The translations under genes were made by a program, and so were the position numbers. A stretch of DNA of 64,000 bases, from the NCBI RefSeq assembly GCF_026802175.1, contig NZ_CP113797.1:2767026-2831025 (forward strand), written 5' to 3'. The DNA comes from Thermocoleostomius sinensis A174 (GTDB taxonomy: Bacteria > Cyanobacteriota > Cyanobacteriia > Elainellales > Elainellaceae). The first letter of the stretch is position 1. Every line of letters starts with the position of its first letter. Of this stretch, positions 1 through 53,882 are shown piece after piece. The notes beneath the pieces are model-generated. The model made no database searches. It worked only from the letters and a program-made list of their open reading frames with translations, and had not been told where the DNA came from.

Positions 1-366
1 ACCAAGCTGAAACCGCAGTACTCGAATTTGGTTAATGTCGATTGTTTCTCGCCAAGCTGGGCGCGTTTGTCCGATCTGCCGTCCGTAGACCTCAACCTTA
101 CAAATTTCCTCTAAATGCAGTTGGCTAAACTGTTGCCGCATCCAAGTGCTCAGTAAGGATTGATCAGGAACCGTCACTGCTTCTACAACAACCCCAAGTC
201 GATCGTCTTTACGACCGCACTTCACAGTCATTTCCATTGGTTGCAATCCTTGATTCAGCAGTTTCGCAATGGCGGAGGGAATACCCTGTTGCACCTGCTG
301 ACGTTCGCCGGAACCAAGGTTGGGCAAAGACTGTTGCTGCATCCAGCCGGACTGTACCATTGCCAT
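1..366 (-). CDS. Partial conserved hypothetical protein (C-terminus beyond window)
   Basis: An open frame runs from ATG at 366 (second ATG in frame at 360) to the window edge without a stop, so the C-terminus is missing. The visible 122 residues start MAMVQSGWMQQQ and include a basic patch (KCGRKDDR) and the motif KVEVYGRQIGQ followed by PAW. This KVYGRQ-G-x-PAW pattern resembles a small domain I associate with cyanobacterial hypothetical proteins, but I cannot name a function. Upstream on this strand are short 9-bp tandem repeats (about 374-406). Product unknown; the reading frame itself looks real because of its length and codon use. Confidence 0.6.
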   Translation of the reverse strand, partial: MAMVQSGWMQQQSLPNLGSGERQQVQQGIPSAIAKLLNQGLQPMEMTVKCGRKDDRLGVVVEAVTVPDQSLLSTWMRQQFSQLHLEEICKVEVYGRQIGQTRPAWRETIDINQIRVLRFQLG

Positions 367-373
367 CGTTGTC

Positions 374-406
374 TACTATTGTTATCTACTATCGTTACTA
401 TCGTTA
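374..406. repeat. Degenerate 9-bp tandem repeat upstream of the partial gene
   Basis: The stretch repeats CTATCGTTA-like units (CTATTGTTA, CTATCGTTA, CTATCGTTA). It lies directly upstream of the start of the partial minus-strand gene, in its probable promoter or 5' leader. No function can be read from it. Confidence 0.5.
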
Positions 407-634
407 GCTGCCATCGTCCGTTCCTACAATTGTTCGCGGCAGTATTGGCTTTACAAACGCGAGGAACGATCTCATTTGCAGTATCTAGTAAACCCAAAAA
501 ACAGCCATAACTTAACAGGATCATTGACTCAACCGATTGAACTCCAACCAAAATCAACCAGTGAGACAAAATACAACACAAAAATTAATGTGGACTTGGA
601 TAAAGTTGCTCCGCTGAGGGGATAAGCAAGGATG

Positions 635-668
635 TTTGTCTAAGATATTTGTCTAAGATATTTGTCTA
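635..668. repeat. 13-bp tandem repeat at the 3' end of the HEAT-repeat gene
   Basis: TTTGTCTAAGATA occurs twice without a mismatch (635-647, 648-660), followed by an 8-base partial copy (661-668). The partial copy contains the TAG stop codon (minus strand, 666-668) of the HEAT-repeat gene, so the array begins at that stop and extends downstream of it. It looks like a slippage-prone microrepeat. Confidence 0.8.
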
Positions 669-1949
669 GTTCATCCATTCCTGTATTGCAATGGTCAACC
701 CTTGCTTGAAAGATTCATCCAGATCAAAGCGATCGGCGTATTCGTGTAATCGTTGATATGATTGTTGCCAATCAAGTTGCTTTAAAGCAGCAATCGCGTG
801 AAAACGCACACTGGCACTTGAATCGGCGAGAAGATGGATTAGGGCATCAATCGCTATGGGTTGCCCTAGTTGTCCTAAGCTGAGGGCAATGGTTTGCTTA
901 TGCTTAAGGGTGAGAACCTGACCAGAGCGATGCAGTAAATCCAGCAGAATTTGAGTTGCTTGCTCTTGCGTTTTTGGTGATTCCGTGCGCCCTAACACGG
1001 CGAGAATTTCTTGCTGAACGTCAGATGTGAGGAGGGTAGCAAGCTGGGCTGAAGCGGATACAGAGTGTTTGATTAGAAAATGCAATGATTCTAGGGCGTG
1101 TGGGGTGTCGATCCGGGATAAAGCGCGCACCGCTTCTAGTTGTAACGCTACAGGTGTATGAGGCGATTGCAACACCTCGAACAGCGCATCGGCTGCCTGA
1201 TTGGTACCAATCCGACCAAGGGCGATCGCTGCTTGACAACATACGTCAAGATTAAAATCTCGCAATCGTTCCTGCAAGTGTTGTGTGAGTTGCCCTAACT
1301 CAGGGGTATCCATATGAGCCGCTTGAATGCCCAGTCCAATCACGGCCGCTTTGCGCACACTGGTTGTCAGGTCCGCAAGGGCTGGCAGCAGCACAGTTGA
1401 AACAGCGGGTGTGTGGAAATGGCTAAGGGCTTCGATCGCGGCAGCACGGATAGCAGGATCGGGATCGGATACCAACGTCAGCAAAGGAGAAATAGCCTCA
1501 GGGTGACGAATTTGAGCTAATGCCTTAACTGCGAAAAGCCGGGTAGCTTCTTGTTGCAATAGGGTGGTGAGAGGAGCGATAGCGGTTGTGCCGTGATGGG
1601 CTAATGCAGTGGCGGCCATCCCTGCCACATCTTCATGGGTTGCTGTGGCTAACAAATTCACCAACGCGGAAACGGCAGCAGGATGCGCGATGTTGCCTAA
1701 GATCCGCGCTACAAACCACAGCAGTTCCCAATCGGAATCTTCTTCTTCAAGAATGACCAACAATGGCTCGATCGCGACCGCACCGCTTTTAGCAAGCAGT
1801 TTGCTGGCTTCCCAACGAGCTTGAAAGTCGCCCATCTTTAAGGTGTCAACGGTTACTGCTACCTTGAATTGAGCCTCAGAGAGAGACGACTCAGCGACAT
1901 GCGGGCGAACTGAACTGGATTGTGTGTTGGTCGATCGATTCTTAGTCAT
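666..1949 (-). CDS. nirB: HEAT-repeat protein, probable nitrite-reductase partner NirB
   Basis: 427 residues made largely of PBS-lyase/HEAT-like alpha repeats (recurrent patterns such as IAPLTTLL, AIRAAAIEALSHF, VRFHAIAALKQL), with no signal peptide or membrane segment. Such repeats bind proteins rather than catalyse. The gene is divergent from nirA across a 995-bp spacer. In Synechococcus PCC 7942 and Anabaena, a protein called NirB, needed for full nitrite reductase activity, is encoded next to and divergently from nirA, and a HEAT/phycobilin-lyase-like fold has been suggested for it. The assignment to NirB (not the unrelated enterobacterial NirB) rests on this position plus repeat type. 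A phycobilin-lyase-type (CpcE/NblB) role is the main alternative. The start is ATG at 1949. Confidence 0.65.
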   Translation of the reverse strand: MTKNRSTNTQSSSVRPHVAESSLSEAQFKVAVTVDTLKMGDFQARWEASKLLAKSGAVAIEPLLVILEEEDSDWELLWFVARILGNIAHPAAVSALVNLLATATHEDVAGMAATALAHHGTTAIAPLTTLLQQEATRLFAVKALAQIRHPEAISPLLTLVSDPDPAIRAAAIEALSHFHTPAVSTVLLPALADLTTSVRKAAVIGLGIQAAHMDTPELGQLTQHLQERLRDFNLDVCCQAAIALGRIGTNQAADALFEVLQSPHTPVALQLEAVRALSRIDTPHALESLHFLIKHSVSASAQLATLLTSDVQQEILAVLGRTESPKTQEQATQILLDLLHRSGQVLTLKHKQTIALSLGQLGQPIAIDALIHLLADSSASVRFHAIAALKQLDWQQSYQRLHEYADRFDLDESFKQGLTIAIQEWMN

Positions 1950-2741
1950 GATCGCAGAACAGACTTGGAGTTATGCCGAGTCTACTGTGAGTTTGATGCA
2001 GAATGCTACTAAGTTTGACTTTGTTTAGTACCATTCGCGCTCACACCATGTAAAAATCGCATCATCATAACGCAATTGATACATGTAGCCTTTTGATTTG
2101 TGTTCAAAGTTACGAAAGAGCTTTGTCTACTTGTTTAGGATGAAATCAAGCAATTGATTTAGTTAATTGATTTCTACCTTGAATCAATCTATAGGGTGAG
2201 GAATTGAAAGAAAGGTTAACCCTTGATCGGGTTCAAACTAATGTCTGTTTAGTGACCTATGACTATGACACGTTCAACCCTAGTAATGATCAAATTATGA
2301 ACAGCTTATTAATTTGCTTTCCATGCAATTCAATGATTTTTTAAAAGAGAAAAAATTGCTACAAAATCATCAAAATTTCAACGCTAGTCTATTTTTGATT
2401 TATTGAATGAGAAGGATCTAACTAAATAAGAAATGTTGATGTTGTAGCTAATGCAATTGTTGTTTTTCATAAGTTAAGCCGTGATATCAAGATCAGATAT
2501 CTACGGTAGGTATTTACGTGACACAAGTTTGATAGTTTCTCAATGTTTGACTAGATTTAATCGAAAATTTGACCGAAAAAGATGACTCAAGAATATATTG
2601 CTCATTTCTTCAGATTCATTCAATGTCTATCTAAAGTCATAGAATTACACCTTATTTTGTTAAAAACACTTGTGCTTTTTGTAACGTAATAGCCTTTGAT
2701 TTAAGTGCTCAAGGCTTAGCATCAGCCCTTGGATAGATTTA

Positions 2742-2754
2742 TGCAGAAATTGCA
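2742..2754. promoter_or_regulatory. Candidate NtcB (LysR-type) site, TGCA-N5-TGCA
   Basis: TGCAGAAATTGCA is an exact TGCA-N5-TGCA. This is the LysR-type motif described for NtcB-dependent, nitrite-responsive activation of the nirA operon in Synechococcus PCC 7942. Its centre is about 50 bp upstream of the centre of the NtcA box. No ntcB gene is visible in this window. Confidence 0.55.
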
Positions 2755-2791
2755 TGGCGTAATGCGAAAAAGACATTTGAGATGAACTTTT

Positions 2792-2833
2792 GTAACTGAG
2801 GCTACGAAATTAAGCTTGTATTTTCCTTACCTT
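2792..2833 (+). promoter_or_regulatory. NtcA-activated nirA promoter
   Basis: GTAACTGAGGCTAC (2792-2805) is a perfect GTA-N8-TAC NtcA box. Exactly 22 bases later is TACCTT (2828-2833), matching the TAN3T -10 element. The N20-24 spacing is that of class II NtcA promoters, where the box replaces the -35 region. Transcription would begin near 2840, leaving a leader of about 105 nt before nirA. It is expected to be activated by 2-oxoglutarate-bound NtcA when ammonium is scarce. Confidence 0.85.
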
Positions 2834-2944
2834 AAGCCATTAAGTTGGCTGCAACGAACGTTTTCAAAGTCTGGAAGAAATCAATAGTTTCAAGTTTCAG
2901 AATGTTACACACTCAGCCATCTAACGCAAATAGAGGATAGATCC

Positions 2945-4543
2945 GTGACTAGTGTTCTCACTAATCAAGCCAGCCAAAATAAGTTCGAGAAATTCAAAGC
3001 TGAAAAGGACGGTCTGATGGTCAAGGATGAGCTTGATCAATTTGCCCAAATCGGATGGGAGGCGATGGATGAAACCGATCGCGATCATCGATTGAAATGG
3101 GTAGGGCTGTTCTTCCGTCCAGTCACACCTGGCAAGTTTATGTTGCGGATGCGGATGCCAAGCGGAATTCTCACCAGCCATAAAATGCGTGTACTCGCAG
3201 ACATTGTTCAACGGTATGGAGAGGATGGCAATGCTGACATCACCACCCGGCAGAACCTTCAACTTCGGGGTATTCGGATTGAAGACTTTGCTGATATTTT
3301 CCGCCGCTTGCGGGAAGCTGATATGACCAGCGTTCAGTCTGGCATGGACAATGTGCGCAACATTACCGCGTCACCAGTGGCTGGATTAGATGCCGACGAG
3401 TTGATCGATGTGCGGGATCTGGTGCAGCAAGTGCAAGACATGATCACTAATGGCGGCGAAGGTAATCCTGAGTTCACCAACCTACCTCGCAAATTCAACA
3501 TTGCGATCGAGGGTGGGCGAGACAATTCGGTTCATGCCGAAATCAATGACATTGCCTTTGTGCCAGCCTTCAAACCAGAACCCAACGAAACAGTTTCCAA
3601 CCCTCAATCCCCAACCTCCCCTAGTCCCCAGCTTGGATTTAATGTCCTTGTGGGTGGTTTCTTCTCGGCCAAGCGCTGTGCCGCTGCAATTCCTTTAAAT
3701 GCATGGGTTGCCCCTGAGTCTGTGGTTGCACTCTGCCGTGCGATCTTGGAAGTTTACCGCGATCATGGATTGCGGGCGAATCGACAGAAAGCTCGGTTAA
3801 TGTGGCTGATCGATGAATGGGGACTGGAAAAGTTTCGATCGGCGGTGGAAGAAAAGATGGGTCAACCGCTGCATCCGGCGGCTGAAAGAGATGAGATTGA
3901 CTGGGAAAAACGCGATCACATCGGGGTATATCGACAAAAGCAACTGGGATTCAACTATGTCGGCTTACATGTGCCCGTGGGTCGGTTGTTCGCCCCGGAT
4001 ATGTTTGAAATTGCCCGTTTGGCGGAGGTATACGGCAATGGTGAAATTCGCCTGACCGTAGAGCAAAATCTAATTATCCCAAATGTTCCCGATTCGCGCT
4101 TAGAAGCCCTGTTGCAGGAGCCGCTGCTAGAGAAGTTCTCTGTTGAGCCGACACCACTGGTACGATCGCTGGTTTCCTGTACTGGCGCTCAGTTTTGCAA
4201 CTTTGCCCTGATCGAAACCAAGAATCGAGCATTGGCAATGATTCGGGAACTAGAAACTGAATTGGAACTCACGCAACCAATTCGGGTGCATTGGACAGGT
4301 TGCCCAAATTCCTGTGGACAGCCGCAGGTCGCTGATATTGGGTTGATGGGCACGAAAGCGAGGAAAGACGGCAAAGCAGTTGAGGGCGTGGATCTGTATA
4401 TGGGCGGCAAGGTCGGCAAAGATGCGCACCTTGGTTCCTGTGTCCAGAAAGGCATTCCCTGCGATGACTTGAAACCTGTACTACGTAATTTAATGATTGA
4501 GCAGTTTGGAGCGCGTCCAAAACTGGAGGACACTATGGCTTAA
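2945..4543 (+). CDS. nirA: Ferredoxin-nitrite reductase NirA
   Basis: Reduces nitrite to ammonium with six electrons from reduced ferredoxin, using a siroheme coupled to a [4Fe-4S] cluster. The 532-residue length fits the family. The cluster/siroheme cysteines are visible as C412-X5-C418 and C453-X3-C457 in the contexts SCTGAQFCN and TGCPNSCGQ. Start is GTG at 2945, preceded by a GAGGA-type ribosome site. It is the first gene of the nirA-nrtABCD-narB cluster and lies behind the NtcA promoter. One oddity is a Pro/Ser/Asn-rich stretch at about residues 214-229, just before the conserved FNVLVGGFFS segment, which looks like an in-frame low-complexity insertion. Confidence 0.97.
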   Translation: MTSVLTNQASQNKFEKFKAEKDGLMVKDELDQFAQIGWEAMDETDRDHRLKWVGLFFRPVTPGKFMLRMRMPSGILTSHKMRVLADIVQRYGEDGNADITTRQNLQLRGIRIEDFADIFRRLREADMTSVQSGMDNVRNITASPVAGLDADELIDVRDLVQQVQDMITNGGEGNPEFTNLPRKFNIAIEGGRDNSVHAEINDIAFVPAFKPEPNETVSNPQSPTSPSPQLGFNVLVGGFFSAKRCAAAIPLNAWVAPESVVALCRAILEVYRDHGLRANRQKARLMWLIDEWGLEKFRSAVEEKMGQPLHPAAERDEIDWEKRDHIGVYRQKQLGFNYVGLHVPVGRLFAPDMFEIARLAEVYGNGEIRLTVEQNLIIPNVPDSRLEALLQEPLLEKFSVEPTPLVRSLVSCTGAQFCNFALIETKNRALAMIRELETELELTQPIRVHWTGCPNSCGQPQVADIGLMGTKARKDGKAVEGVDLYMGGKVGKDAHLGSCVQKGIPCDDLKPVLRNLMIEQFGARPKLEDTMA

Positions 4544-4787
4544 ATTCTTACTGGATTGTTCCCGGAAGCTGGGTCTGATGACTGTTTAACCAGGAAATAT
4601 GGTTCATGCAATCACGTTGGAATGGAGTCGATCGATTCACCTCTGAATGAGATTGTATGGTCAATTTTAGATTGCCAGATTTCATCGCAATTCTAATCGC
4701 TCCACCACATTGTATTGATTTGCGTTTTGTTACACAGTTTTGTTCACTTTTAGTCCTCTAGATAGAGAAGGAAACAGTTAACTCTTT

Positions 4788-6104
4788 ATGTCCAAAATTA
4801 CTCGTCGCAACTTCTTAATTACGGCTGGAGCTACCACAGCAGCTACTCTTTTGGTGCATGGTTGCAGTTCTGGACAAAATACCAGTTCTGAATCAAATGC
4901 ATCCCCTGCTGCTAGTCCGGTTGCAGCGATCGATACCCCCGAAGTGACTACAGCTAAGCTTGGGTTTATTGCGCTAACAGATTCGGCTCCGCTGATTATT
5001 GCCAAGGAGAAGGGACTCTTCGCGAAGTACGGAATGCCCGATGTAGAAGTTGTCAAGCAAGCTTCTTGGGCAGCTACCCGTGACAATTTGGAGCTTGGGT
5101 CGCAAGGGAACGGCATTGACGGCGCGCATATCTTGACGCCAATGCCTTATTTGATGACGACTGGTAAGATTACTCAACAACCGTTGCCAATGTATATTTT
5201 GGCGCGGCTCAATACCAATGGACAAGGGATTTCAGTCGCCAATACCTATGCCGATCTGAAGGTAGGCACGGACAGCAGTCCCTTGAAGCAGGCGTTTGCT
5301 CAAGCCAAATCGCAAGGTAGAGATCTCAAAGCAGCCGTGACTTTTCCTGGTGGAACACACGATCTCTGGATGCGATACTGGCTAGCAGCCGGCGGCATCA
5401 ACCCAGACAGCGATATTTCTACGATCGTTGTTCCACCGCCACAGATGGTGGCCAATATGAAGGTGAACACGATGGAAGCGTTTTGTGTCGGAGAACCCTG
5501 GAACGCACAATTGGTAAGCCAAAACCTGGGCTACACGGCGTTGGTGACGGGCGAGTTGTGGAAAGATCATCCTGAGAAAGCCTTTGCTTTGCGTGCTGAT
5601 TGGGTCGATCAACATCCTAAAGCCGCAAAGGCGCTGACAATGGCGGTTTTAGAAGCACAACAATGGTGCGATCAAGCGGAAAACAAAGCTGAAATGTGCG
5701 ACATTATCTCCAAACGAGAGTGGCTGAAGATTGATGCTCAAGATATTTTGGGACGAGCCAAGGGCGACATTGACTATGGTACAGGGAAGACCGTTGAAAG
5801 CAGCCCGCTGTTGATGAAATTCTGGGCAGACAATGCCTCATATCCCTTCAAGAGCCATGATCTCTGGTTCCTGACAGAAGAAATTCGTTGGGGCTATTTG
5901 CCACCTGATACCGATACAACTGCCCTAGTGGAGCAAGTAAACCGCGAAGACATTTGGCGGGAAGCGGCCCAAGCTATTAACGTACCTGCTTCCGACATCC
6001 CTAGCAGCACCTCTCGCGGCGTAGAGACCTTTTTTGATGGCAAAACCTTTGATCCTGAAAACCCTGAAGCGTATCTAAATAGCCTCGATATCAAGAAAGT
6101 GTAA
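4788..6104 (+). CDS. nrtA: Nitrate/nitrite ABC transporter substrate-binding lipoprotein NrtA
   Basis: 438 residues. The N-terminus has a twin-arginine motif (TRRNFLI), a hydrophobic stretch and a lipobox ending at HGC, so the protein should be exported and lipid-anchored on the periplasmic face. The mature part shows the NrtA/CmpA-type pattern (LGFIALTDSAPLIIAKEKGLF, VVPPPQMVANMK, FCVGEPWNAQLV). It binds nitrate and nitrite for NrtBCD. It lies 244 bp downstream of nirA. The bicarbonate-binding CmpA is the close alternative, but linkage to nirA and narB supports the nitrate role. Confidence 0.95.
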   Translation: MSKITRRNFLITAGATTAATLLVHGCSSGQNTSSESNASPAASPVAAIDTPEVTTAKLGFIALTDSAPLIIAKEKGLFAKYGMPDVEVVKQASWAATRDNLELGSQGNGIDGAHILTPMPYLMTTGKITQQPLPMYILARLNTNGQGISVANTYADLKVGTDSSPLKQAFAQAKSQGRDLKAAVTFPGGTHDLWMRYWLAAGGINPDSDISTIVVPPPQMVANMKVNTMEAFCVGEPWNAQLVSQNLGYTALVTGELWKDHPEKAFALRADWVDQHPKAAKALTMAVLEAQQWCDQAENKAEMCDIISKREWLKIDAQDILGRAKGDIDYGTGKTVESSPLLMKFWADNASYPFKSHDLWFLTEEIRWGYLPPDTDTTALVEQVNREDIWREAAQAINVPASDIPSSTSRGVETFFDGKTFDPENPEAYLNSLDIKKV

Positions 6105-6236
6105 CCGACCAAGCCAGGCTGAGGATTAAATGAGGAAGTTCCAGTTTAATTACTCGGCCGTCGTCTAATTTGTCCCCCATCCCTGATTGCTTCAATTCAA
6201 CTCCATTTTATTCTCATCCATCCCTCACTTTGACTT

Positions 6237-7079
6237 ATGACTGTCACCCGTCAACGATCCACTCGATCGACTCAAACTAACTTTGCATCGCAATTGTTGT
6301 CTCGAAAGCAAACTCGAAAAATTGTTGCACCCATCATTGCGCTATTCATCTTTCTAGTTGTTTGGCAGTTGCTATGTATGTCTCCTACGGCTCCCATTCC
6401 AGCGCCAACACAAGTTCTGCAAGATACTTGGGAACTGATTGTTGATCCATTCTTCAACAATGGCGGAACGAATGTTGGTTTATTCTGGCAAATCATGGCT
6501 AGCTTAAGGCGGGTAGCGATTGGATTTACCTTGGCAGCCGTAGTTGGCATTGCGCTTGGGGTTCTGATTGGAACCAGCGGTTTAATTTACGATGCAATCG
6601 ATCCATTGTTTCAAGTGCTGCGAACGGTGCCTCCTCTGGCTTGGCTGCCGATCTCGCTAGCTGCATTTCGTGACAATGAACCCTCGGCGATTTTTGTGAT
6701 TTTTATTACTGCTATTTGGCCCATCATCATCAATACGGCTGTTGGGGTGCAGCAAGTTCCACAGGATTACAAAAATGTGTCCAGAGTGTTGCAACTTTCT
6801 CGTTGGCAGTACTTCACCAATATCTTAATTCCCGCTACCGTTCCCTATGTGTTTACCGGATTACGCATCGGCGTGGGGCTATCTTGGTTGGCGATCGTTG
6901 CAGCAGAAATGTTAATTGGTGGTGTTGGTATTGGCTTCTTTATTTGGGATGCATGGAACAGTTCGCTAATTAGCGAGATTATTTTGGCACTTGTGTACGT
7001 GGGAATTGTGGGTTTGCTGCTTGATAAACTCATGGCCTTCATCGGTAGGCTGGTTGTTCCTGGAGAAGCTGGAAGATAA
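6237..7079 (+). CDS. nrtB: Nitrate/nitrite ABC transporter permease NrtB
   Basis: 280 residues with about six hydrophobic segments, the first at residues 31-48 after a basic N-terminus. A cytoplasmic EAA-like loop lies near VSRVLQLSRWQYFTNILIP, the ATPase docking site. It forms the membrane channel for NrtA-delivered nitrate or nitrite and pairs with ATPases NrtC and NrtD. It is 132 bp after nrtA and 56 bp before nrtC. No strong Shine-Dalgarno sequence precedes the ATG, as is common in cyanobacteria. Confidence 0.95.
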   Translation: MTVTRQRSTRSTQTNFASQLLSRKQTRKIVAPIIALFIFLVVWQLLCMSPTAPIPAPTQVLQDTWELIVDPFFNNGGTNVGLFWQIMASLRRVAIGFTLAAVVGIALGVLIGTSGLIYDAIDPLFQVLRTVPPLAWLPISLAAFRDNEPSAIFVIFITAIWPIIINTAVGVQQVPQDYKNVSRVLQLSRWQYFTNILIPATVPYVFTGLRIGVGLSWLAIVAAEMLIGGVGIGFFIWDAWNSSLISEIILALVYVGIVGLLLDKLMAFIGRLVVPGEAGR

Positions 7080-7135
7080 GCATTTTCATCTTCTCACTAT
7101 CCCTTACCCTTCATCCTTCATTATTTTCCACTCCC

Positions 7136-9142
7136 ATGTCTACTTTCGTTGAAATTGACCACGTTGATAAGGTATTTTCGCTACCCAATGGCGATTACTA
7201 TGTGGCCCTAAAGAATATTGATTTAAAGATTCACCAAGGTGAGTTTGTGTCGTTAATTGGGCATTCCGGCTGCGGCAAATCGACACTACTCAATATTGTT
7301 GCCGGTCTCGATCGCACAACAACGGGCGGGGTACTGCTAGAAGGACGGCAAGTGACGCAACCGGGGCCCGATCGCATGGTGGTGTTCCAAAACTACTCGC
7401 TGTTGCCTTGGAAAACAGTTTACCAAAACATTGCCCTGGCAGTAGATTCGGCTCTAAAGCATTTGCCCAACGGCGAACGGCGCGGCATTATTGAACAGCA
7501 CATTGATCTGGTAGGGTTACGCCACGCTCGCGATAAGTTTCCCCATGAATTGTCAGGGGGCATGAAGCAGCGGGTGGCGATTGCTCGCGCCTTGGCCATT
7601 CGTCCCAAACTGCTGCTACTGGATGAACCATTTGGCGCACTCGACGCCTTGACACGCGGCAATTTGCAAGAGCAGTTGATGAAAATTTGTCAGGAAAGCC
7701 ATGTCACCTGCATCATGGTGACGCACGATGTGGATGAAGCGCTGCTGCTGTCCGATCGGGTGGTGATGCTGACAAATGGACCCGAAGCTCATATCGGTCA
7801 AATCTTGGAAGTGCCGATTCCGCGGCCTCGCCAGCGGTTGGAAGTGGTGAATCATCCCCGTTATTATTCACTGCGTAGCGAGATGATTTATTTTCTCAAT
7901 CAGCAAAAGCGGGCCAAGCGGCGGCAGTCTCAGCAAAAAGTGGCGATCGCTGGCAACGGCTTAAGCAAGGTGAATCTAGATATCGGCTTCATTCCCCTCA
8001 CTGACTGCGCTCCGCTAGTAGTGGCTAAAGAGAAGGGCTTCTTTGCCAAGCACGGACTAGAACAAGTCACGTTGTCGCGGGAACCGAGTTGGAAGGCCAT
8101 TTCAGAAGGCGTGGCATCGGGACGATTGGATGCAGCACAGATGGTGGCAGGAATGCCACTGGCAATGACCTTGGGCGTGGGTTCAAAGGCTCCTTTGCCG
8201 GTAATTACGGCGCTAGTACTCGATCGCAACGGCAATGCCATCACCTTTAGCCGCCACTTGTTCAACCGAGGCGTGCGCACCGTTGCTGATTTCAAAGCCC
8301 TGTTAGCTGACACTCCCGATCGAACGCATACGCTGGGCATGGTGCATCCGGCCTCAATGCACAACTTGCTGCTGCGCTATTGGCTGGCTTCGGGTGGCAT
8401 TGACCCCGATCACGATGTCAACCTGACGGTGATTCCTCCGGCTCAAATGGTCTCGAACTTGAAGGCGGGTAATATTGATGGCTACTGTGTTGGAGAACCC
8501 TGGAATTCGCGGGCTGTTTACGAAGGCTTGGGCGTCGTCATGGCAACTGATCTTGACATTTGGGCTGGACACCCAGAAAAAGTGTTGGGGGTGCGAGAAG
8601 ACTGGGTCAATGCGCATCCCGAAACCCACAAGGCCCTCGTGAAAGCTCTGCTGGAAGCGTGTGACTACTGTGATGATATGCGCAACCGCGAAGAGATTCT
8701 GGGCTGGTTGTGTCAGCCGCAATACGTAGGAACAGATCCCACCTATACGCGCATGGGTTTTCTCGATCCCTACGATCGGGGTACAGGAGCGGAACCGGAA
8801 TGGTTGCCGCGCTTCAATCAGTTTCATGTCGATCGAGCCAACTGTCCCGGTCGGGCTGAAGGGCTGTGGATTTTAACCCAACTCGCACGCTGGGATATGA
8901 CTCCCTTCCCCAAAAACTGGGTAGAAATTTTGGAACGGGTACGTCGGGTTGATTTGTATGGAGCCGCCGTGCGCGAATTAGGACTTCCCGATCTAGAACT
9001 CGATCGCGAACCCTTTCAGTTATTCGACAAAGTGGTATTCGATCCCGATGATCCGATCGGGTATCTCAATAAGTTCTCGATCTGTCGCGACTTCCGCATT
9101 GAAGAAATTAACATCGACGTACCTACTTCTGTTGCTGCCTGA
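7136..9142 (+). CDS. nrtC: Nitrate/nitrite ABC transporter ATPase with NrtA-like regulatory domain, NrtC
   Basis: 668-residue fusion. Residues 1 to about 255 form an ABC ATPase: Walker A GHSGCGKST, signature LSGGMKQR, Walker B LLLLDEPFG. From about residue 278 the rest is an NrtA-like domain (LDIGFIPLTDCAPLVVAKEKGFF; GYCVGEPWNSRAV) without export signal, so it is cytoplasmic. In this family that domain is the sensor that lets ammonium/nitrogen status inhibit transport. Length matches known NrtC. It is followed 29 bp later by nrtD. Confidence 0.96.
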   Translation: MSTFVEIDHVDKVFSLPNGDYYVALKNIDLKIHQGEFVSLIGHSGCGKSTLLNIVAGLDRTTTGGVLLEGRQVTQPGPDRMVVFQNYSLLPWKTVYQNIALAVDSALKHLPNGERRGIIEQHIDLVGLRHARDKFPHELSGGMKQRVAIARALAIRPKLLLLDEPFGALDALTRGNLQEQLMKICQESHVTCIMVTHDVDEALLLSDRVVMLTNGPEAHIGQILEVPIPRPRQRLEVVNHPRYYSLRSEMIYFLNQQKRAKRRQSQQKVAIAGNGLSKVNLDIGFIPLTDCAPLVVAKEKGFFAKHGLEQVTLSREPSWKAISEGVASGRLDAAQMVAGMPLAMTLGVGSKAPLPVITALVLDRNGNAITFSRHLFNRGVRTVADFKALLADTPDRTHTLGMVHPASMHNLLLRYWLASGGIDPDHDVNLTVIPPAQMVSNLKAGNIDGYCVGEPWNSRAVYEGLGVVMATDLDIWAGHPEKVLGVREDWVNAHPETHKALVKALLEACDYCDDMRNREEILGWLCQPQYVGTDPTYTRMGFLDPYDRGTGAEPEWLPRFNQFHVDRANCPGRAEGLWILTQLARWDMTPFPKNWVEILERVRRVDLYGAAVRELGLPDLELDREPFQLFDKVVFDPDDPIGYLNKFSICRDFRIEEINIDVPTSVAA

Positions 9143-9171
9143 CTTCATTCTTATTCCTCCTCCGTACCACT

Positions 9172-10002
9172 ATGCATACCCTAAACGATCTCCATCTGAC
9201 TCCCGTTGCTACTTGTTCTCCATTTCTGCGGATTGAGAATGTTTCCAAGATCTATCCCACTCCTAATGGCCCATATCCAGTGTTGCAAGGGGTTGATCTC
9301 ACGGTCAACGAGGGCGAGTTTGTTTGCTTGATTGGTCACTCTGGCTGCGGCAAAACCACTTTGTTAAACATGGTGGCGGGATTTAGCCAACCCACCACAG
9401 GCGCAGTTTATCTACAAGATCAACCAATCGCTAAACCCGGACCCGATCGCATGATGGTATTTCAAAACTACTCGCTGTTGCCCTGGAAAACGGCCTACGA
9501 GAATGTCGATTTGGCGGTCAAAGCGGTGAATCCTAACATGTCGGCGGGGCAACGACGCTCAATTGTGCATGAGCACTTAAACATGGTGGGGTTGACCGAA
9601 GCCGCCGATAAGCGCCCCGGGCAATTGTCGGGTGGTATGAAGCAACGGGTGGCGATCGCCCGTGCCCTAGCTATTCGCCCACAGGTGTTAATTCTCGATG
9701 AACCGTTTGGAGCACTTGACGCGATTACCAAAGAAGAGTTGCAGGAAGAGTTATTGACCATTTGGCGAGATCACCAAGTTACTGTGTTAATGATTACTCA
9801 TGATATCGACGAAGCTCTATTTTTAGCCGATCGACTGGTAATGATGACGAATGGCCCGGCGGCCCAAATTGGTGAAGTGTTGGATATTCCTTTTCCACGC
9901 CCTCGAAATCGTGCTCGAATTTTAGAAGACCCCAACTATTACGATCTACGCAATCATGTTTTAGATTTCCTCTATCGCCGGTTTGCACACAGCGAAGATT
10001 AA
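9172..10002 (+). CDS. nrtD: Nitrate/nitrite ABC transporter ATPase NrtD
   Basis: 276 residues forming a single ABC ATPase domain: Walker A GHSGCGKTT, signature LSGGMKQR, Walker B LILDEPFG and a switch histidine in MITHDID. It lacks the NrtA-like extension of NrtC and should form the NrtC-NrtD heterodimer that powers NrtB. The start is ATG at 9172. About 30 residues precede the first conserved strand (FLRIENVSKIY). A structured element (10041-10083) lies between this gene and narB. Confidence 0.95.
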   Translation: MHTLNDLHLTPVATCSPFLRIENVSKIYPTPNGPYPVLQGVDLTVNEGEFVCLIGHSGCGKTTLLNMVAGFSQPTTGAVYLQDQPIAKPGPDRMMVFQNYSLLPWKTAYENVDLAVKAVNPNMSAGQRRSIVHEHLNMVGLTEAADKRPGQLSGGMKQRVAIARALAIRPQVLILDEPFGALDAITKEELQEELLTIWRDHQVTVLMITHDIDEALFLADRLVMMTNGPAAQIGEVLDIPFPRPRNRARILEDPNYYDLRNHVLDFLYRRFAHSED

Positions 10003-10040
10003 ATCGAGCAAGTTTGTCAACTGTGAGTGGATGGATTTAG

Positions 10041-10083
10041 TGGGTCTTCGTTGGCAACAGGGACAGCCACGTGACCCATTTTT
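10041..10083 (+). terminator. Two-tier stem-loop with U tract between nrtD and narB
   Basis: TGGGTC (10041-10046) pairs with GACCCA (10073-10078). Inside it TGGC (10052-10055) pairs with GCCA (10066-10069), and five T follow (10079-10083). This has the form of an intrinsic terminator. Since narB begins 80 bp later on the same strand, partial termination that lowers narB expression is a reasonable reading. Confidence 0.6.
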
Positions 10084-10162
10084 CTTCCCCACTCGGTTCG
10101 CTAATCTACTGAATCTGATGTGTGGCGCTGAACGTGTGGCGTTCTAGTGTTTTGAGGCAGCT

Positions 10163-12391
10163 ATGACAGAATGCACAAAAACTCTTTGCCCTTACTGTGG
10201 TGTTGGTTGCGGTTTAGAAGTGTCGCCACCAGCGCGTCCGGGTGGTAAAGCAACGCACCGAGATAGTCAAGGTAATCCCATTTGGCAGGTGCGGGGCGAT
10301 CGAACCCATCCATCGAGCCAAGGCATGGTCTGTGTCAAAGGAGCGACGGTCAGCGAGTCGTTAGACAAAGATCGCCTCAAATATCCAATGTGGCGCGACA
10401 GCCTGAATCAGCCATTTCGCCGGATTTCGTGGGATGACGCCCTCAACCGAATTGTCGATCGGATTCAAACCATCCGTCGCCACCGTGGCCCTGATGCCAT
10501 TTGCATGTATGGGTCGGGACAGTTTCAAACTGAAGATTACTATGTGGCCCAAAAACTGATGAAGGGCTGTTTGGGAACTAACAATTTTGATGCCAATTCC
10601 CGCCTGTGTATGTCGTCAGCCGTGGCAGGCTATCTGCAAAGCTTTGGCTCTGATGGTCCACCCTGTTGCTATGACGATCTAGAATTGACTGATTGCGCTG
10701 TCTTGGTTGGTACAAACGCCGCTGAATGCCACCCGATCGCCTTTAACCGACTGCGCAAACATCACAAGCGCAACCCGCACGTCAAGATGATCGTGGTTGA
10801 TCCGCGCCGCACTGCCACCGCCGAAGCCGCCGATTTGCATCTGGCAATTCGCCCCGGTACAGATATTGATTTGTTCAACGGCATTGCTCATCTGCTGTTG
10901 CGTTGGGGCTACTTTGATACAGCGTTTATTGACGAATGCACAAACGGATTTTCCAAGTACACTAGCTTGTTGCCGCACTATTCCCCCGATCGAGTGGCGC
11001 AGCACTGTGGTATTGGCGTAGGTGATCTGGAAACAGCCGCCCGTTACTGGGGCGAGGCGAAGCGCGTGCTATCGCTGTGGTCGATGGGCATGAACCAATC
11101 CTCAGAGGGAACGGCGAAAGTCTCAACGCTAATTAACCTACACTTGATGACAGGGATGGTGGGTAAACCAGGAGCCGGACCCTTTTCTCTCACAGGTCAG
11201 CCCAACGCGATGGGTGGACGAGAAGCGGGAGGATTATCTCATCTATTGCCAGGCTATCGATCGGTGAAAAATCCGCAGCATCGAGCCGAAGTCGAACAAG
11301 CTTGGGGAGTGCCAAGGGGACAAATTTCACCGCAGCCAGGACGTGATGTGTGGCGTATGATTACTGGACTAGAGCAGGGTGAGGTAGAACTGCTGTGGAT
11401 CGCCGCTACCAATCCGGCTGTGAGTATGCCCGATTTGCAACGCACCAAGGCGGCGCTGCGCCAGTCACCGTTTACAGTGTATCAAGATGCCTACTATCCC
11501 ACGGAAACGACCGAGTATGCCCACCTGCTATTACCAGCGGCTCAATGGGGAGAAAAAACTGGCACCATGACCAATTCTGAACGAGTGGTGACGCTGTGTT
11601 CAAAGTTCCGCGATCCGCTGTGGGACGCCAGGGCCGATTGGGCTATTTTTGCTGAAGTGGGACGCAGGCTGGGATTTGTGGAGCAATTTAACTTCGCCAG
11701 CTCAGCAGAAGTTCATGCAGAATTTGTGCGGCTAACCCGCGATCGTCCTTGCGATATGTCAGGCATGAGTCACGATCGGTTGCGGCACGGCCCGATGCAG
11801 TGGCCCTATACCCAGGCGGATGCCGAAAACCCAGATGCGAAAGCTTATACAACGGGTAAACGGTTGTACACCGACTGGCGCTTTCATACGCCGGACGGGC
11901 GAGCTCACTTTGTAGCGTATCCTTCTAAAGGATTGGCCGAACCTCCCGACCCCAACTATCCGTTTGTGCTGACGATTGGACGGCTGTATGGACACTGGCA
12001 TACCCAAACTCGCACGGGACGCATTGAAAAAACCGCCAAAATGTACCCAAACCCGTTCTTGGAGATTCACCCCCGCGACGCCGAAAAGCTGGGCATTGCT
12101 GATGGTGATTGGGCAGAGGTGCGATCGCGACGAGGCAGCATTCGCGTTCCGGCCAGCGTCACTAAAAACATTGCCCCTGGAACAGTGTTCGTACCAATGC
12201 ACTGGGGTGCTCTGTGGGCCGACAACGCCGAAGCCAATGCCTTGACTCATCCAGAGGCTTGCCCCTCATCACTGCAACCAGAACTGAAAGCCTGCGCTGT
12301 GCAAATTCTTAAAGTTCCGCCGTCTACTGTGAGCGAATCAGCAGCAATCGCACAGGTCATTCCGGAAGCTAATCCCGCTATGCACGTTTAG
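10163..12391 (+). CDS. narB: Ferredoxin-nitrate reductase NarB
   Basis: 742-residue cytoplasmic molybdoenzyme reducing nitrate to nitrite with ferredoxin electrons. The N-terminus carries the [4Fe-4S] motif C9-X2-C12-X3-C16 with a fourth cysteine in GMVCVKG. C149 in the context RLCMSS is the expected molybdenum ligand, and bis-MGD-binding segments follow ([30 protein letters not shown]). It is the last gene of the cluster and acts just before NirA. Its TAG stop overlaps the TAA stop of the convergent nnr gene. The chaperone-like partner gene narM is not found in the window. Confidence 0.96.
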
Positions 12392-13965
12392 CAATAGGGC
12401 TGTAAAGCTGGGATGAGGTAGTGAATCAGTGTCGAGGCATCGACTCCTAACTCCGATCGCTCTGTTGCCGCCATGATCCCGGCTTGGGCGTGCCACCAGG
12501 CCGCACTGAATACTACCTGTTCAATTGCCGTTCCCCGTAACACCCCCTGTGCTAACAGTCCGCCCATCAGCCCAGTTAACACGTCTCCTGTACCCCCTCG
12601 CGCCAAAGCAGGGGTACTTTCAGGATTGAGCCAAGCCGTGCCGTTGGGGCTGGCGATCGTGGTTCTGGCCCCTTTCAGGAGTACCACCGCTCCGCTTTGT
12701 TGGGCGGCTTGCTGGGCTGCGGTAATCCGATCGTCGCTGGCTTCTGCCAACTCGGGAAATAGGCGCTTGAATTCGCCCCAGTGTGGCGTCAGGATTGTGG
12801 GGGCAGTCCGAGCCTTGAGCGTAGGTAAAGTTGCCAAGTTGGCCAAAATATTCAGCCCATCGGCATCTAGTACGACCGGACGATCGCGAGCCAGGACTTG
12901 CTGCACCACCGGACTCGCCGCAGGCGTTACCCCACAGCCGCAGGCGATCGCGTTGTATTTTTCCATCTCCAAGTCCTCTGGCAACTGAGCCATTGCACCC
13001 GTATCATCTTCAGAGCAACCCATCACCAGCGCATCCGGCAACTGGGCAATCAGCAGTAACCGCATTGATTCCGGTACGGCGATCGACAACATCCCCACGC
13101 CACTTGCCCTAGCCGATAATCCTGCCAACACTGCCGCTCCCATGTATTGCCGCGATCCGCACACTAACAGCAAATGTCCCTGTTTGTACTTATGCGTCGT
13201 TGCTGGGCGGGACAAAGGCAGTGATTCGATCGCCATCGCTGGAGTAATTCGTTGCAGCTTGGGCGTTTCGCCTAACACCGCTGTAATATCAGCTAGCGGC
13301 AGCCCAAAATCGATCAAGTGAGACTCACCCATATAGGCTAGGGCTTGTTCTTGCAAAAAAGCGCGTTTCCACAGCCCTAAACACAAGGTATGCGTTGCCT
13401 GAATCGCTGTTCCTAACACAGCCCCCGTATCTGTGTGCAAACCAGATGGTAAATCAATACTGACCACAGGCTGCGACCATTGATTGACTTGATCCACCGC
13501 TGCCGCGATCGCTCCCTCTAGCGATCGGGTGAGGCCAAAGCCAAACAACCCATCAATCACTAGATCGCACGAGGCCAGAGCCTCAATCTGATCCTGTACG
13601 GAAATGCCCAAACTGGCGATGTATTGAGCATGGCTAGCCGTAAGATCTTTCAATTGGCTGAACGGTTGATATAGCTTCACCTCATAGCCGCTGACATGTA
13701 ACTCCCGCGCCACCACCAGCGCATCGCCGCCATTGTGCCCCGGTCCCACTAACACCCCCACGCGAGGAAATTGGGATACCGAAAACCGCGATCGCACCCA
13801 GGCGGTAATCAACCCCGCCACTTTTTCCATCAACGCCGCCACAGGCATTCCCGCAGCAAACACGCGCCCCTCAATGTGGCTCATTTGCTCTGCTGTCACC
13901 ACAAACCGCTGAATGGATTGCGATCGGTTCAAACCTAAAAACTGTTTAGAATCGGGATGTATCAT
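12388..13965 (-). CDS. nnr: Bifunctional NAD(P)H-hydrate epimerase / ADP-dependent NAD(P)H-hydrate dehydratase
   Basis: 525 residues. The N-terminal YjeF/epimerase domain (about 20-235) shows [18 protein letters not shown] and [13 protein letters not shown]. The C-terminal ribokinase-like dehydratase (about 250-520) shows [12 protein letters not shown] and [15 protein letters not shown]. Together they repair hydrated NAD(P)H: one domain epimerises the R form to the S form, the other dehydrates it using ADP. It is convergent with narB, the stop codons overlapping by three bases, and its start is only 35 bp from the divergent VOC gene. Confidence 0.95.
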
Positions 13966-14000
13966 GACCAGTAATCAACCTTGATAAGAACGAACATCAA

Positions 14001-50000: not shown

Positions 50001-52220
50001 GATGTGGCGCATGGCACATTTGTGTGCAACTACGAAGGGCATCATGACGCGGTGCGCTCGGTCGTATTCAGCCCGGATGGGCATTATGCATTGTCAGCCA
50101 GCGATGATGCTACGTTGAAACTATGGGAAGTGTCGTCGGGACAATGTGTGCGTACACTCGAAGGTCATACCGGAGCGGTGCGATCGGTGGTGTTTAGTCC
50201 CGATGGGCACTTTGCCTTATCAAGTAGCCACGACAAAACCCTGAAGATTTGGGATATTTCTACCGGGCAATGTTTACAAACCCTCGAAGGTCACACTGGA
50301 GCTATCCGATCGGCAGTCTTTAGCCCCGACGCTCGTTATGCGCTCTCGGGTGGAATGGATCGAAGCTGCAAACTGTGGCTTTTGGACTGGGATTTGACCA
50401 ATCAACCACCCGCAAAGTGGGATGAGAAAGCCCGCCCCTATTTACAAACTTTTCTTACCTTGCACACCCCCACCGTCGGCAGCTTGCCCCAGACCCGCGA
50501 AGCTAGTCAGCAAGAAATTACGGATGCTCTCACCCGTCAAGGATTGCCCGCTTGGACAGAGGCGGACTTTGGAGCGTTGATGTATCAGCTAAGCTGTGCT
50601 GGGTTTGGCTGGCTGCAACCGGATGGAGTGCGACAACAGTTGGCTCAGATGGCGGTGACAGCAAACTCGCTGGCTCCTGCTCGATCGGAGGAACCAGACA
50701 AAGTAGACCGCACGGCCTTCGCTACCGACTATGACACGGCCTTCGCCACGGCTGTTGTGGAACCAGGGCAAACCATAAAAGTGGTGCTGGCTGTCACCGA
50801 GGGCAGCCTTAAAGGACAAGAGTATGAATTTGGCGATCGCACTACCTGCGTCATTGGTCGAGCGAAAGACTGTAACCTACAACTGCCCAATGACGAATAT
50901 CATAAAACAATTTCGCGCTATCACTGCCTGCTAGACATTAATCCTCCTGCCATCCGTATTCGCGATTTAGGTAGCCTGCACGGAACCTATGTTAACGGTC
51001 AAATGATTGGCCGGCGATTGCCCAATCAAACGCCCGAAGAAGTGGCACAAATGAATTTTCCAGAGCATGATCTGAGCACTGGTGATGAAATTAAACTGGG
51101 CAAGACAGTCTTTCGAGTTCGAGTGGACGGCGCGATTGATGAAGCGAATATGCCCACCTCGATCGCACCACCCCTAGACCAAATGGATCAAACCGTGCTG
51201 GGTAATCCAGTCGCTAAGTCGCCAAATGTCTCGATTCCGCAAGCACTGTCCGATCGTCTTGCGGCTGAATCGCTCTCGGCAAACCATTATGCCGTACATG
51301 CATCTGCGATGGAGCAGATCAATGCATCCGATGCCATTGAGGCTCAGGACACTCCCTTGCCCTTAGTCGAGGGTTACACCATTCTCAGGCAAATTGGAGC
51401 CGGAACTACAGGGGTGGTGTACTTAGCGCTAAGCCACCAACTGGAAGAACGAGTGGCGCTGAAGATCCTGACTCCTAAAACCGTCGTACGATCGACAGTC
51501 ATCGATTTGTTCTTGCAAGAAGTGGAAAACACGAAGGTTTTACAGCACCAAAACATCGTAAAACTGCTAGAGTCTGGCTATGTGGATGGCAAGTTTTTCT
51601 TCGCGCTGGAATATTGCGATGGTGGCAGTGTTGCCGATCTGATGCAGCAACGTGGCGGGCGCTTGTCAATCGATGAAGCCATGCCAATCATCCTGCAAGT
51701 CCTAGAGGGGCTGGAATATGCTCACAATATTGAGGTTCCTAATACGAACCACAATGGCGCCAAAACGCTGCCTTTAGTCCATCGGGCACTCAAACCAGCA
51801 AACTTGTTACTGACCTATGCTCCCGGAGCACGCATCGCCAAAATTGCCGAGTATGGGTTGGCTAAGGCATTTGATCAAGCTGGGCTGGGGGGGCTATCCA
51901 CTAGTGGCAGTACGGTAGACATGACACGGTTTATGCCGCGACAACAGGCGGTTAATTTTAGGTACGCCAGCCCTGAAGTCGATGTTTGGGCCTGTGCTGC
52001 CTGTCTCTATTACATGCTGACCGGTAACTATCCCCGTGACTTTACAGGAAAAGATCCCTATCTGGCCGTTCTGCAAAACCAACCTGTGCCGATCAATCAG
52101 CGCCATGTTGCCATTCCTCCAGCCCTGTCTGAGGTGATTGATTATGCGTTGGTTGATAATCCAGAGATTCAGTTTAAAACCGCTAGGGCGTTTAAAGAAG
52201 CTTTGAAGCGGGTGGTGTAG
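47073..52220 (+). CDS. Giant multidomain signalling protein: kinase - TPR - WD40x7 - linker - WD40x7 - FHA - pseudokinase
   Basis: 1715 residues, no membrane segment. The N-terminal Hanks kinase (about 15-300) keeps K48, D148 (as HQD, not HRD) and DFG 166-168. TPR-like helices follow (about 310-430). Two sets of seven WD40 repeats (about 450-730 and 815-1106) each fit one seven-bladed propeller, separated by a helical linker (755-810). An FHA domain (about 1245-1350) has R1263, SRYH 1281-1284 and GTYVNG. The C-terminal kinase-like domain (about 1434-1715) keeps K1464 and N1577, but the catalytic Asp is A1572 (HRALKPAN) and DFG is EYG (1593-1595), so it is probably a pseudokinase. FHA domains bind phosphothreonine. 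This may be a self-contained scaffold and switch; its targets are unknown. Confidence 0.95.
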   Translation: MLNRIGGQWQAGDVILDLYKVISILSQGEFGEAYKIRHLGWDIDLVVKSPKPAIVEALGVDQFEQDIDAWVQLGTHPHIVSCYYVRRVNNSPLVFSEYVAGGSLHDWIQSRQLYADGTTRSLHRLLDIAIQLAWGLHYAHDRGVIHQDVKPENVLIGSTGVAKITDFGLVNANAIASSLSVRQNLGGANTLLTENRGVVTAAYCSPEQASQTVLSRRSDLWSWGLTVLEMFAGKRTWTSGVVAAQTLDRYLQSNHEWHLPRMPAPVVALLQQCFRENADERPHTMLDVAQSLQQVYQQVTGESYGRQLPDESHGADGLNNRAVALWDLGHHEEAVQLWEQALATQPQHQEALYNRGLVLWRSGQLKDDTALLTQLQASRTQPADWNVDYLSSLIYLEQGDYQTALSILETLRTAGVRSERVDATFAAARERSRLAARHLPDSEQLQQYAHRDVTSVALSPDNRYAITGSDDKTVRLWDVASGRCICTFRGHKAGVSSVAFSPNGNYILSASWDKTIKLCEIVTTSYVRTFKGHWGAVQSIAFSPDGYYFLSGSDDKTLKLWELTTGKCLRTFRGHRSRVSSVSFSPDGRYALSASDDKTLKLWEIASGRCVRTFEGHTAYATSTLYNFDRYCILFGSPMQMLEVSSDRIIRTFDGHQLWVRTAVFERDGRYILSGSDDTTVKLWEVSTGRCLRTMTGYTQPIRSVVLSVDGAYALAADSEQVRLWAVNCNTLPYQAPLRLSQSKTQEMVVSSNQSYGQELAQAQMAREQGDMISAAQHLRKARSQPGYNRSSDALDAWLSLYRYLPRRDLTNGWELSSFDRHADAVYGVVFSPDSSYALSASGDGTIKLWEVSTGRALRSFEDHRDRVNAITLSPDGNYALSGSSDTTLKLWQVMTGSCLRTLREHTDAVYAVAFSPDGSYALSGSADCTLKLWDVTSGRCLRTWDGHRDSINAVAFSPDGSYALSGSADYTLKLWDVAHGTFVCNYEGHHDAVRSVVFSPDGHYALSASDDATLKLWEVSSGQCVRTLEGHTGAVRSVVFSPDGHFALSSSHDKTLKIWDISTGQCLQTLEGHTGAIRSAVFSPDARYALSGGMDRSCKLWLLDWDLTNQPPAKWDEKARPYLQTFLTLHTPTVGSLPQTREASQQEITDALTRQGLPAWTEADFGALMYQLSCAGFGWLQPDGVRQQLAQMAVTANSLAPARSEEPDKVDRTAFATDYDTAFATAVVEPGQTIKVVLAVTEGSLKGQEYEFGDRTTCVIGRAKDCNLQLPNDEYHKTISRYHCLLDINPPAIRIRDLGSLHGTYVNGQMIGRRLPNQTPEEVAQMNFPEHDLSTGDEIKLGKTVFRVRVDGAIDEANMPTSIAPPLDQMDQTVLGNPVAKSPNVSIPQALSDRLAAESLSANHYAVHASAMEQINASDAIEAQDTPLPLVEGYTILRQIGAGTTGVVYLALSHQLEERVALKILTPKTVVRSTVIDLFLQEVENTKVLQHQNIVKLLESGYVDGKFFFALEYCDGGSVADLMQQRGGRLSIDEAMPIILQVLEGLEYAHNIEVPNTNHNGAKTLPLVHRALKPANLLLTYAPGARIAKIAEYGLAKAFDQAGLGGLSTSGSTVDMTRFMPRQQAVNFRYASPEVDVWACAACLYYMLTGNYPRDFTGKDPYLAVLQNQPVPINQRHVAIPPALSEVIDYALVDNPEIQFKTARAFKEALKRVV
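49812..49981. repeat. Two identical 44-bp WD40 coding segments
   Basis: Bases 49812-49855 and 49938-49981 are identical and 126 bp apart, exactly one 42-codon WD40 repeat. Other blades differ at synonymous sites, so this indicates recent duplication or gene conversion within the second propeller. Confidence 0.85.
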
Positions 52221-53112: not shown

Positions 53113-53155
53113 ACACCATCCCATTCTTCCTCTTCATTCATACAAATCCTGTTTC

Positions 53156-53309: not shown

Positions 53310-53882
53310 ATGACAGTTAATCATGATTGTAATCAAGATAATTTTTTGACTAAATTCGGTACCAGTTTTAATAAATATACCGATAAACGCATTGTCATTC
53401 GTTGTGCAGCAGTCGATGATGTACCAGTAATTCTGAAGCTAATTCACCAAAAAGCCGAATATGATGGCTGTCCTGACTTGGTAACAGCCACCGCCGAGCA
53501 CCTGCACGCTGATCTATTTGGAGCTAAAAGATCAGAGATTGTTTTGTTAGTTGAAATTGAGGATACGATTGCTGGATTTGCTACCTATTATTTCACCTAT
53601 TCCTCATTTCTATCCAAGCCAGGAATCTGGTTGGACGATCTCTATTTAAGACCCGAATTTCGTGGGCAAGGAATTGGGCAAACACTCATGCAGCAGCTTT
53701 GTTACATCGCTCAGCAAAGTGGCTGCGAACGAATGGACTGGACAGTTGCAACACGTAACGATCGCGGCATAAAGTTTTACCAAAAAATGGGCGCTACGAT
53801 AATAGAGACTGTACGGTTGTGTCGTCTAGACAAACAGGCGATCGCTCGACAGGCGAAGGAAACCCCAGGCGTACATTCATGA
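53310..53882 (+). CDS. GNAT-family N-acetyltransferase
   Basis: 190 residues. The GNAT core (about 25-180) shows IRCAAVDDVPVILKLIHQKA, the strand LVEIEDTIAGFATYYF and the acetyl-CoA loop LRPEFRGQGIGQTLMQQL, then ATRNDRGIKFYQKMGA. The spacing resembles the spermidine/diamine acetyltransferase branch (SSAT-like), but the substrate cannot be fixed from sequence. A GAGGAGG ribosome site lies close to the ATG. It is divergent from the LysR gene, its probable regulator. Confidence 0.9.
   Translation: MTVNHDCNQDNFLTKFGTSFNKYTDKRIVIRCAAVDDVPVILKLIHQKAEYDGCPDLVTATAEHLHADLFGAKRSEIVLLVEIEDTIAGFATYYFTYSSFLSKPGIWLDDLYLRPEFRGQGIGQTLMQQLCYIAQQSGCERMDWTVATRNDRGIKFYQKMGATIIETVRLCRLDKQAIARQAKETPGVHS

Follow-up and report, generated by a model that had tools for sequence, protein, structure and literature searches.

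The window analyzed here, 64,000 nucleotides of the genome of Thermocoleostomius sinensis A174 (a single contig of 5,809,202 bp), carries a nitrate assimilation operon, nirA-nrtABCD-narB, together with a divergent HEAT-repeat gene and a small uncharacterized ORF. The product of nirA was identified by its NCBIfam match; the narB family matches are to related molybdopterin reductases and every one of them falls below the cut-off. The features that matter for the following analysis are:

666-1949, minus strand: nirB-like HEAT-repeat gene, 427 aa (HEAT_2, 5e-45)
1984-1979, minus strand: possible -10 element TAGACT of the nirB-like gene, read by eye
2048-2084, minus strand: second NtcB-type pair, 22 bp period, 2 mismatches, preceding the divergent nirB-like HEAT gene
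2741-2755, plus strand: distal NtcB-type site ATGCAGAAATTGCAT, a 15-bp perfect dyad (T-N11-A), conserved at offset 51 or 50 in relatives
2762-2776, plus strand: proximal NtcB-type site ATGCGAAAAAGACAT, 21 bp from the distal site, 1 mismatch to the proximal form ATGCA-N5-NNCAT
2792-2805, plus strand: NtcA box GTAACTGAGGCTAC (GTAN8TAC)
2828-2833, plus strand: -10 element TACCTT (TAN3T), 22 bp after the NtcA box
2838 (range 2837-2841), plus strand: predicted transcription start, by analogy with the Anabaena nirA promoter (accessible part of PMC3898017)
2945-4543, plus strand: nirA, ferredoxin-nitrite reductase, GTG start (NCBIfam NF007125, 919 bits against a cut-off of 594)
4788-12391, plus strand: nrtA, nrtB, nrtC, nrtD and narB, the remainder of the operon, ORFs named from recognized sequence and order
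54018-54185, minus strand: uncharacterized small ORF, 55 aa, MSNTSRSEK...FNFDQWAGAVKQQMLAALKRRERMRSAWD, candidate NtcB target
54283-54319, minus strand: third NtcB-type pair, ATGCAGAAAATGCAG and ATGCAGCCTATGCAT, 22 bp apart, 1 mismatch

A preliminary description of this DNA had reported three elements upstream of the operon, namely an exact TGCA-N5-TGCA (TGCAGAAATTGCA, 2742-2754), an exact GTA-N8-TAC and TACCTT at a distance of 22 bp, and all three are present where it placed them. The box and the -10 hexamer conform to the class II NtcA consensus (GTAN8TAC, 22 bp, TAN3T; accessible part of PMC3898017). The TGCAN5TGCA motif (T-N11-A) upstream of the box is the mark of an NtcB-dependent nirA promoter, and between this distal dyad and the box lies a weaker second site, ATGCGAAAAAGACAT, the offset of which (29 bp) is conserved in relatives. 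In class II NtcA promoters, the start of transcription is expected some 41.5 nt beyond the centre of the box; from the Anabaena nirA promoter, the nirA start would be predicted near 2838. An Rfam search of positions 1-14000 at the gathering threshold and a comparison of 2000-2944 with plasmid records each gave 0 matches. In the accessible part of PMC10410155, the best growth of T. sinensis A174 is reported at 1.5 g/L nitrate and no growth on 1.218 g/L nitrite; the latter may reflect toxicity.

We abandoned the assessment of the NtcA and NtcB sites one at a time because neither is significant alone: GTAN8TAC occurs 4 times in the window against a shuffle mean of 5.3, and TGCAN5TGCA 5 times against a mean of 2.3, with 7 of 100 shuffles reaching 5. 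An NtcA box followed at 22 bp by TAN3T is found once, compared with 0.127 per shuffled window on both strands. The full composite (TGCAN5TGCA, a short gap, GTAN8TAC, 22 bp, TAN3T) is also found once in the window and in none of 300 dinucleotide shuffles, and the product estimate is 1.9e-4 per 64 kb. A chance origin of the composite is further argued against by the conservation of its fixed spacing in relatives.

This conservation was assessed in 57 nirA upstream regions from 60 genomes, three of which gave two copies and six of which had no close nirA. An exact NtcA box is present within 500 bp in 46 of the 57 regions, and TAN3T follows at exactly 22 bp in 40. For footprinting, we aligned 55 regions on the box without gaps, allowing one box mismatch and leaving out G044 and G048, which have no NtcA-like box. 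The NtcB operator in these relatives is a pair of dyads, ATGCA-N5-YGCAT-N7-ATGCA-N5-NNCAT, at a set place upstream of the NtcA box. A dyad with at most one mismatch starts 51 bp before the box in 33 of the 55 promoters (9 exact) and 29 bp before it in 21 (3 exact), against a mean of 0.16 and a maximum of 4 over 93 other offsets; six further promoters, that of the window among them, have the dyad at offset 50. Scored as one 37-nt element at the fixed place, the pair stays within 4 mismatches in 40 of the 55 promoters, compared with 0 of 3,795 other upstream positions, and has between 5 and 18 mismatches in the remaining 15. The dyad period is 22 bp in relatives, about two helical turns, and 21 bp in the window, where the distal dyad is one base nearer the NtcA box than usual (50 instead of 51). 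The second nirA copies (L064 of G055, L065 of G017 and L067 of G021), which are included in the 55, keep an NtcA-like box, exact in G017 and with one mismatch in G021 and G055, and have no NtcB pair.

Both regulator genes are present in the T. sinensis genome. There is one match over the family cut-off for ntcA (TIGR03697, 388 bits against 244.95), and ntcB, at C1:3679692-3680618, 0.9 Mb from the window, encodes a 309-aa LysR protein that, of all solved structures, is best matched by NtcB (8h3v, E 1.1e-130; the entry holds four NtcB chains). The preliminary description had proposed looking for ntcB elsewhere in the genome and had made its case depend on the gene being there; with ntcB found, that objection falls away. 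The next gene encodes TrpD-type Glycos_trans_3 domains, which we take to fit the expectation for cnaT. NtcB is one of 10 LysR-type HTH matches in the genome. Another is encoded in the window itself (52192-53124, minus strand), divergently from what we recognized as a small gene for a GNAT-like acetyltransferase (53310-53882, plus strand); as the NtcB match lies 0.9 Mb away, this LysR-type gene was ruled out as ntcB. Among the 60 genomes, the window's own included, 55 encode an NtcB that is 55% or more identical, and the protein of G048 has 44% identity. Only distant LysR proteins were found in G002, G014, G036 and G056; G002, G036 and G056 have no close nirA either; in G014, a draft that is 91% complete, nirA is present, as is an operator that has 2 mismatches. 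In the drafts G009, G028 and G031, ntcB was found and no close nirA.

The operator can be connected to NtcB through its recognition helix, VTQ[S/P]TISRQ, which includes residue 30. A scan of NtcB columns against operator bases, made on the 51 genomes with usable data and without the second nirA copies, singled out Pro30, which is present in 6 genomes; of their 24 half-sites, 13 have A/T at base 3 of the operator, compared with 5 of the 180 in the other 45 genomes (Fisher 1.4e-10 with kinship ignored, the strongest among 208 column states). The exceptions are G017, with Pro30 and a normal operator, and five of the 45 non-Pro genomes, each with one variant half-site. An out-of-sample test was obtained by searching 388 genomes of the class for the A/T-type operator with an NtcA box: 13 matched, against 2 for the reversed control, and 9 of the 13 were new. 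As these nine were picked by the operator alone, the test bears on residue 30 alone, and all 9 have Pro30, with the operator upstream of nirA. In a contrast set of 20 genomes, three had no NtcB match at E 1e-40; the other 17 NtcBs comprise 13 with Ser30 and 4 with Pro30. The operator was readable in 8 of the 17, those in which nirA was located, and is A/T-type in both of the Pro30 genomes and variant in none of the six with Ser30. In the combined table of 66 genomes, where an operator counts as variant if at least 2 of its 4 half-sites are, there are 49 Ser/normal, 0 Ser/variant, 1 Pro/normal and 16 Pro/variant. Thus Ser30 appears to pair with ATGCA/TGCAT and Pro30 with ATACA/TGTAT in 65 of 66 genomes, through few independent events: on an NtcB tree computed without residue 30, there are 5 residue changes and 4 operator changes. 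The supported branches give 3 independent pairs (a mean of 2.8 agree over 200 pairings, 0 oppose), too few for the sign test to reach significance.

An outside case fits this rule. The Acinetobacter LysR proteins BenM and CatM have Pro30 in their PDB chains, and their Site 1 consensus, ATAC-N7-GTAT, with several sites per promoter (accessible part of PMC6628147), is the same dyad as that of the Pro30-type NtcB operator. BenM and CatM differ from NtcB in serving another pathway, with another inducer and no NtcA partner.

The pair is not confined to nirA. A search of the 60 genomes that allows at most one mismatch recovers it at 41 places, against 0 for the control, which was the reversed pattern and so is not matched in base composition in every respect. 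By hand assignment of neighbours, 40 of the 41 precede nirA (18), the nirB-like HEAT gene (7), cobA (4) or the small ORF (11), and one, in G047, is unassigned. Relaxing the search to two mismatches gives places in 48 of the 60 genomes (control 1), several of them at unrelated genes. In T. sinensis, three places are then recovered, 2048-2084, 54283-54319 and one inside a large ORF at 2.27 Mb that is probably due to chance; with its 21-bp period, the nirA pair is not caught by this pattern.

The first of these places precedes the gene at 666-1949, which has the position of NirB, a HEAT gene divergent from nirA. Its product matches the HEAT protein encoded divergently from nirA in G046 with 30% identity over 148 aa (E 1.6e-6 in a small local set); because repeat proteins may match by their repeats alone, the proposed orthology rests on position as well. 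A stretch downstream of the 2048-2084 pair, AGTAGACTC, is common to several relatives. Among the cobA promoters, all read by eye, those of G004 and G013 reproduce the whole arrangement, GTAN8TAC and a TAN3T 22 bp later included (the G013 pair lies 0.5 kb ahead of the gene), that of G023 has one box mismatch and that of G012 departs further. In G044 (L036), the composite promoter is followed first by cobA and then by nirA, so that the genes for siroheme synthesis and for nitrite reductase may be transcribed together as an operon there. No pair with at most 2 mismatches was detected at T. sinensis cobA in a 3.2 kb region that includes 1.5 kb upstream.

The second of the three places in T. sinensis lies upstream of the 55-aa ORF. 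This ORF has no family match in Pfam, NCBIfam or PHROGs, and its profile found no match in the PDB up to E 1. At a threshold of E 1e-3, homologs turn up in 30 of the 60 genomes, and an alignment of 17 sequences reveals the core FDxWAxxVRxQMxxxLKKR with invariant F29, W32, V36, Q39, M40 and R47; some of the 17 have stray weak Pfam matches, none of them to DUF1830. We considered two small cyanobacterial proteins that, like the product of this ORF, are tied to nitrate or nitrite use. In the accessible parts of PMC10907346 and PMC13205821, NirP1 homologs are described as mostly 76-86 aa long with three conserved Trp and one Cys, and PirN homologs as having DUF1830. Both identities were rejected: unlike NirP1, the ORF is 55 aa long with one conserved Trp, and unlike PirN, it has neither DUF1830 nor any other Pfam match.

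Homologs of the small ORF occur in many filamentous cyanobacteria. In the window it adjoins exbB/exbD-like genes, named by recognition, and the exbD-like gene has a homolog in 11 of 16 regions around the small ORF. At the best 80 of 85 named loci, which overlap with the earlier genomes, a pair with at most 3 mismatches is found near the start (from 300 bp upstream) in 30, against 0 of 340 control windows. At most 2 mismatches are found at 26 of these best 80, of which 9 repeat earlier places and 17 are new, mostly from one Microcoleus-type clade; the pair-bearing set includes Microcoleus, Tychonema, Kamptonema and Symplocastrum. At the other 50 of the best 80 loci, including Nodosilinea types, the pair is absent, as it is in G002, which lacks ntcB. 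By eye, the pair-bearing promoters have no canonical NtcA box at the place it occupies in nirA promoters. Many promoters share a stretch between operator and ORF, GGCANACTA (54223-54231, minus strand, in the window; also L238 and L247), in which we recognized no known element. Several homologs without the pair (L175 of G007, L169 of G024, L187 of G012, L185 of G008 and L178 of G015) have an NtcA-like box just downstream of a TATGAT-like stretch, a placement that would be compatible with NtcA acting as a repressor; G007, G008 and G015 each encode homologs with the pair as well as homologs without it. The paired operator upstream of the small ORF predicts that its expression would be stimulated by nitrite, and the presence of the same operator at the nirB-like gene and at the small ORF suggests a single nitrite-responsive regulon.

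The nirA promoter of Synechococcus elongatus PCC 7942 combines an NtcA site with an NtcB motif. We count G046 as S. elongatus-like on the basis of its gene order (ntcB/HEAT/nirA) and its three GTAN8TAC boxes, presumably as in PCC 7942. Compared through G046, the T. sinensis promoter is similar in its NtcA box with a -10 element at 22 bp, its upstream TGCAN5TGCA and its divergent HEAT-type gene; however, ntcB, which adjoins the HEAT gene in G046, is remote in T. sinensis. The perfect NtcB site lies 29 bp before the NtcA box in G046 and 50 bp before it in the window, where the site at 29 bp is the weak one. The preliminary description called the arrangement ideal by the standard of PCC 7942, which is too strong: since only the proximal site is perfect in G046 and it is the distal one in the window, the two promoters match in logic and not in exact geometry, that of the window using the more frequent distal position. 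Anabaena/Nostoc PCC 7120 offers a second parallel, as NtcB has its top match in 8h3v, which we take to be an Anabaena transcription complex with looped DNA; the Anabaena nir promoter is said, in the title of Frias et al. 2000, to require both factors. The Anabaena nirA promoter has, as in T. sinensis, GTAN8TAC followed at 22 bp by a -10 element, in this case TAACCT (accessible part of PMC3898017).

Taken as a whole, the locus is very probably a nitrate assimilation promoter activated by NtcA from a class II site and boosted in response to nitrite by NtcB on a two-site operator. NtcA, together with 2-oxoglutarate when fixed nitrogen is scarce, would bind 2792-2805 and, as a class II activator, would recruit RNA polymerase to the -10 element at 2828-2833. 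NtcB, as a LysR-type tetramer, would occupy the operator at 2741-2776 just upstream of the NtcA box, its recognition-type and activation-type sites facing roughly the same side of the helix, and would raise nirA transcription in the presence of nitrite. The two signals, the tetramer on the pair and the expected repression by ammonium are carried over by analogy, as would be any bending or looping of the DNA at the operator. Against this reading stand the weak proximal site and 21-bp period of the window, the 15 promoters that exceed 4 mismatches, the failure to find an NtcB alongside nirA in the G014 draft, the exceptions to the residue-30 pattern and its few independent events, and the reported absence of growth on nitrite. 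The two-factor reading in the preliminary description is upheld by the presence of both genes, the conserved sites and spacing and the co-variation with the NtcB recognition helix, and, besides the geometry, has to be amended in a second respect: the NtcB operator is a pair and not one site.

A plain class II promoter served by NtcA alone, with the TGCA repeats as incidental AT-rich sequence, would accommodate the lack of significance of TGCAN5TGCA by itself in the window as well as the second nirA copies of G017, G021 and G055, with their NtcA-like boxes and no pair; given that the position of the pair is fixed in most relatives and that the pair co-varies with NtcB, we regard this as extremely improbable. 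It is very improbable, too, that the pair is bound by one of the nine other LysR-type regulators, including the product of 52192-53124, perhaps as a repressor. LysR dyads do resemble each other and the genome is not short of such proteins, but residue 30 of NtcB tracks the operator base, out of sample too, and the pair sites cluster at nitrite-reduction genes. A subtler alternative accepts NtcB and assumes one working site per lineage, the distal one here and the proximal one in S. elongatus-like genomes, with the other being a relic instead of half of a tetramer-bound pair. The perfect distal and weak proximal sites of the window, and the perfect proximal site of G046 with no clear distal one, are what it would lead one to expect. 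However, many genomes have both sites, at a spacing of 22 bp, the pair is found at further genes as well and 8h3v holds four NtcB chains, so that we consider this alternative unlikely and prefer NtcA with NtcB on the two-site operator.

Judged from sequence comparison, little about the promoter itself is unexpected beyond its occurrence in a new host, and the new leads, all of them computational, are the paired operator, the residue-30 rule and the small ORF. In the literature searched, which included few subscription papers and some sources only in part, we found no description of the NtcB pair, of the residue-30 rule or of the small ORF as an NtcB target. We lean towards a general scheme in which NtcB uses a two-site operator in register with the NtcA box, residue 30 sets the operator base and the regulon extends past transport and reduction to cobA in some genomes and to a so far undescribed protein of about 50 residues. 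If this is true, a single signal, nitrite, would induce its own reductase together with the siroheme supply for that enzyme, the helper NirB and a small protein acting as regulator or partner. One NtcB residue and one operator base pair seem to change together, which would allow the specificity of a well-studied activator to be swapped by a single change, and in many filamentous cyanobacteria the operator points to the small gene as probably belonging to the nitrite response.
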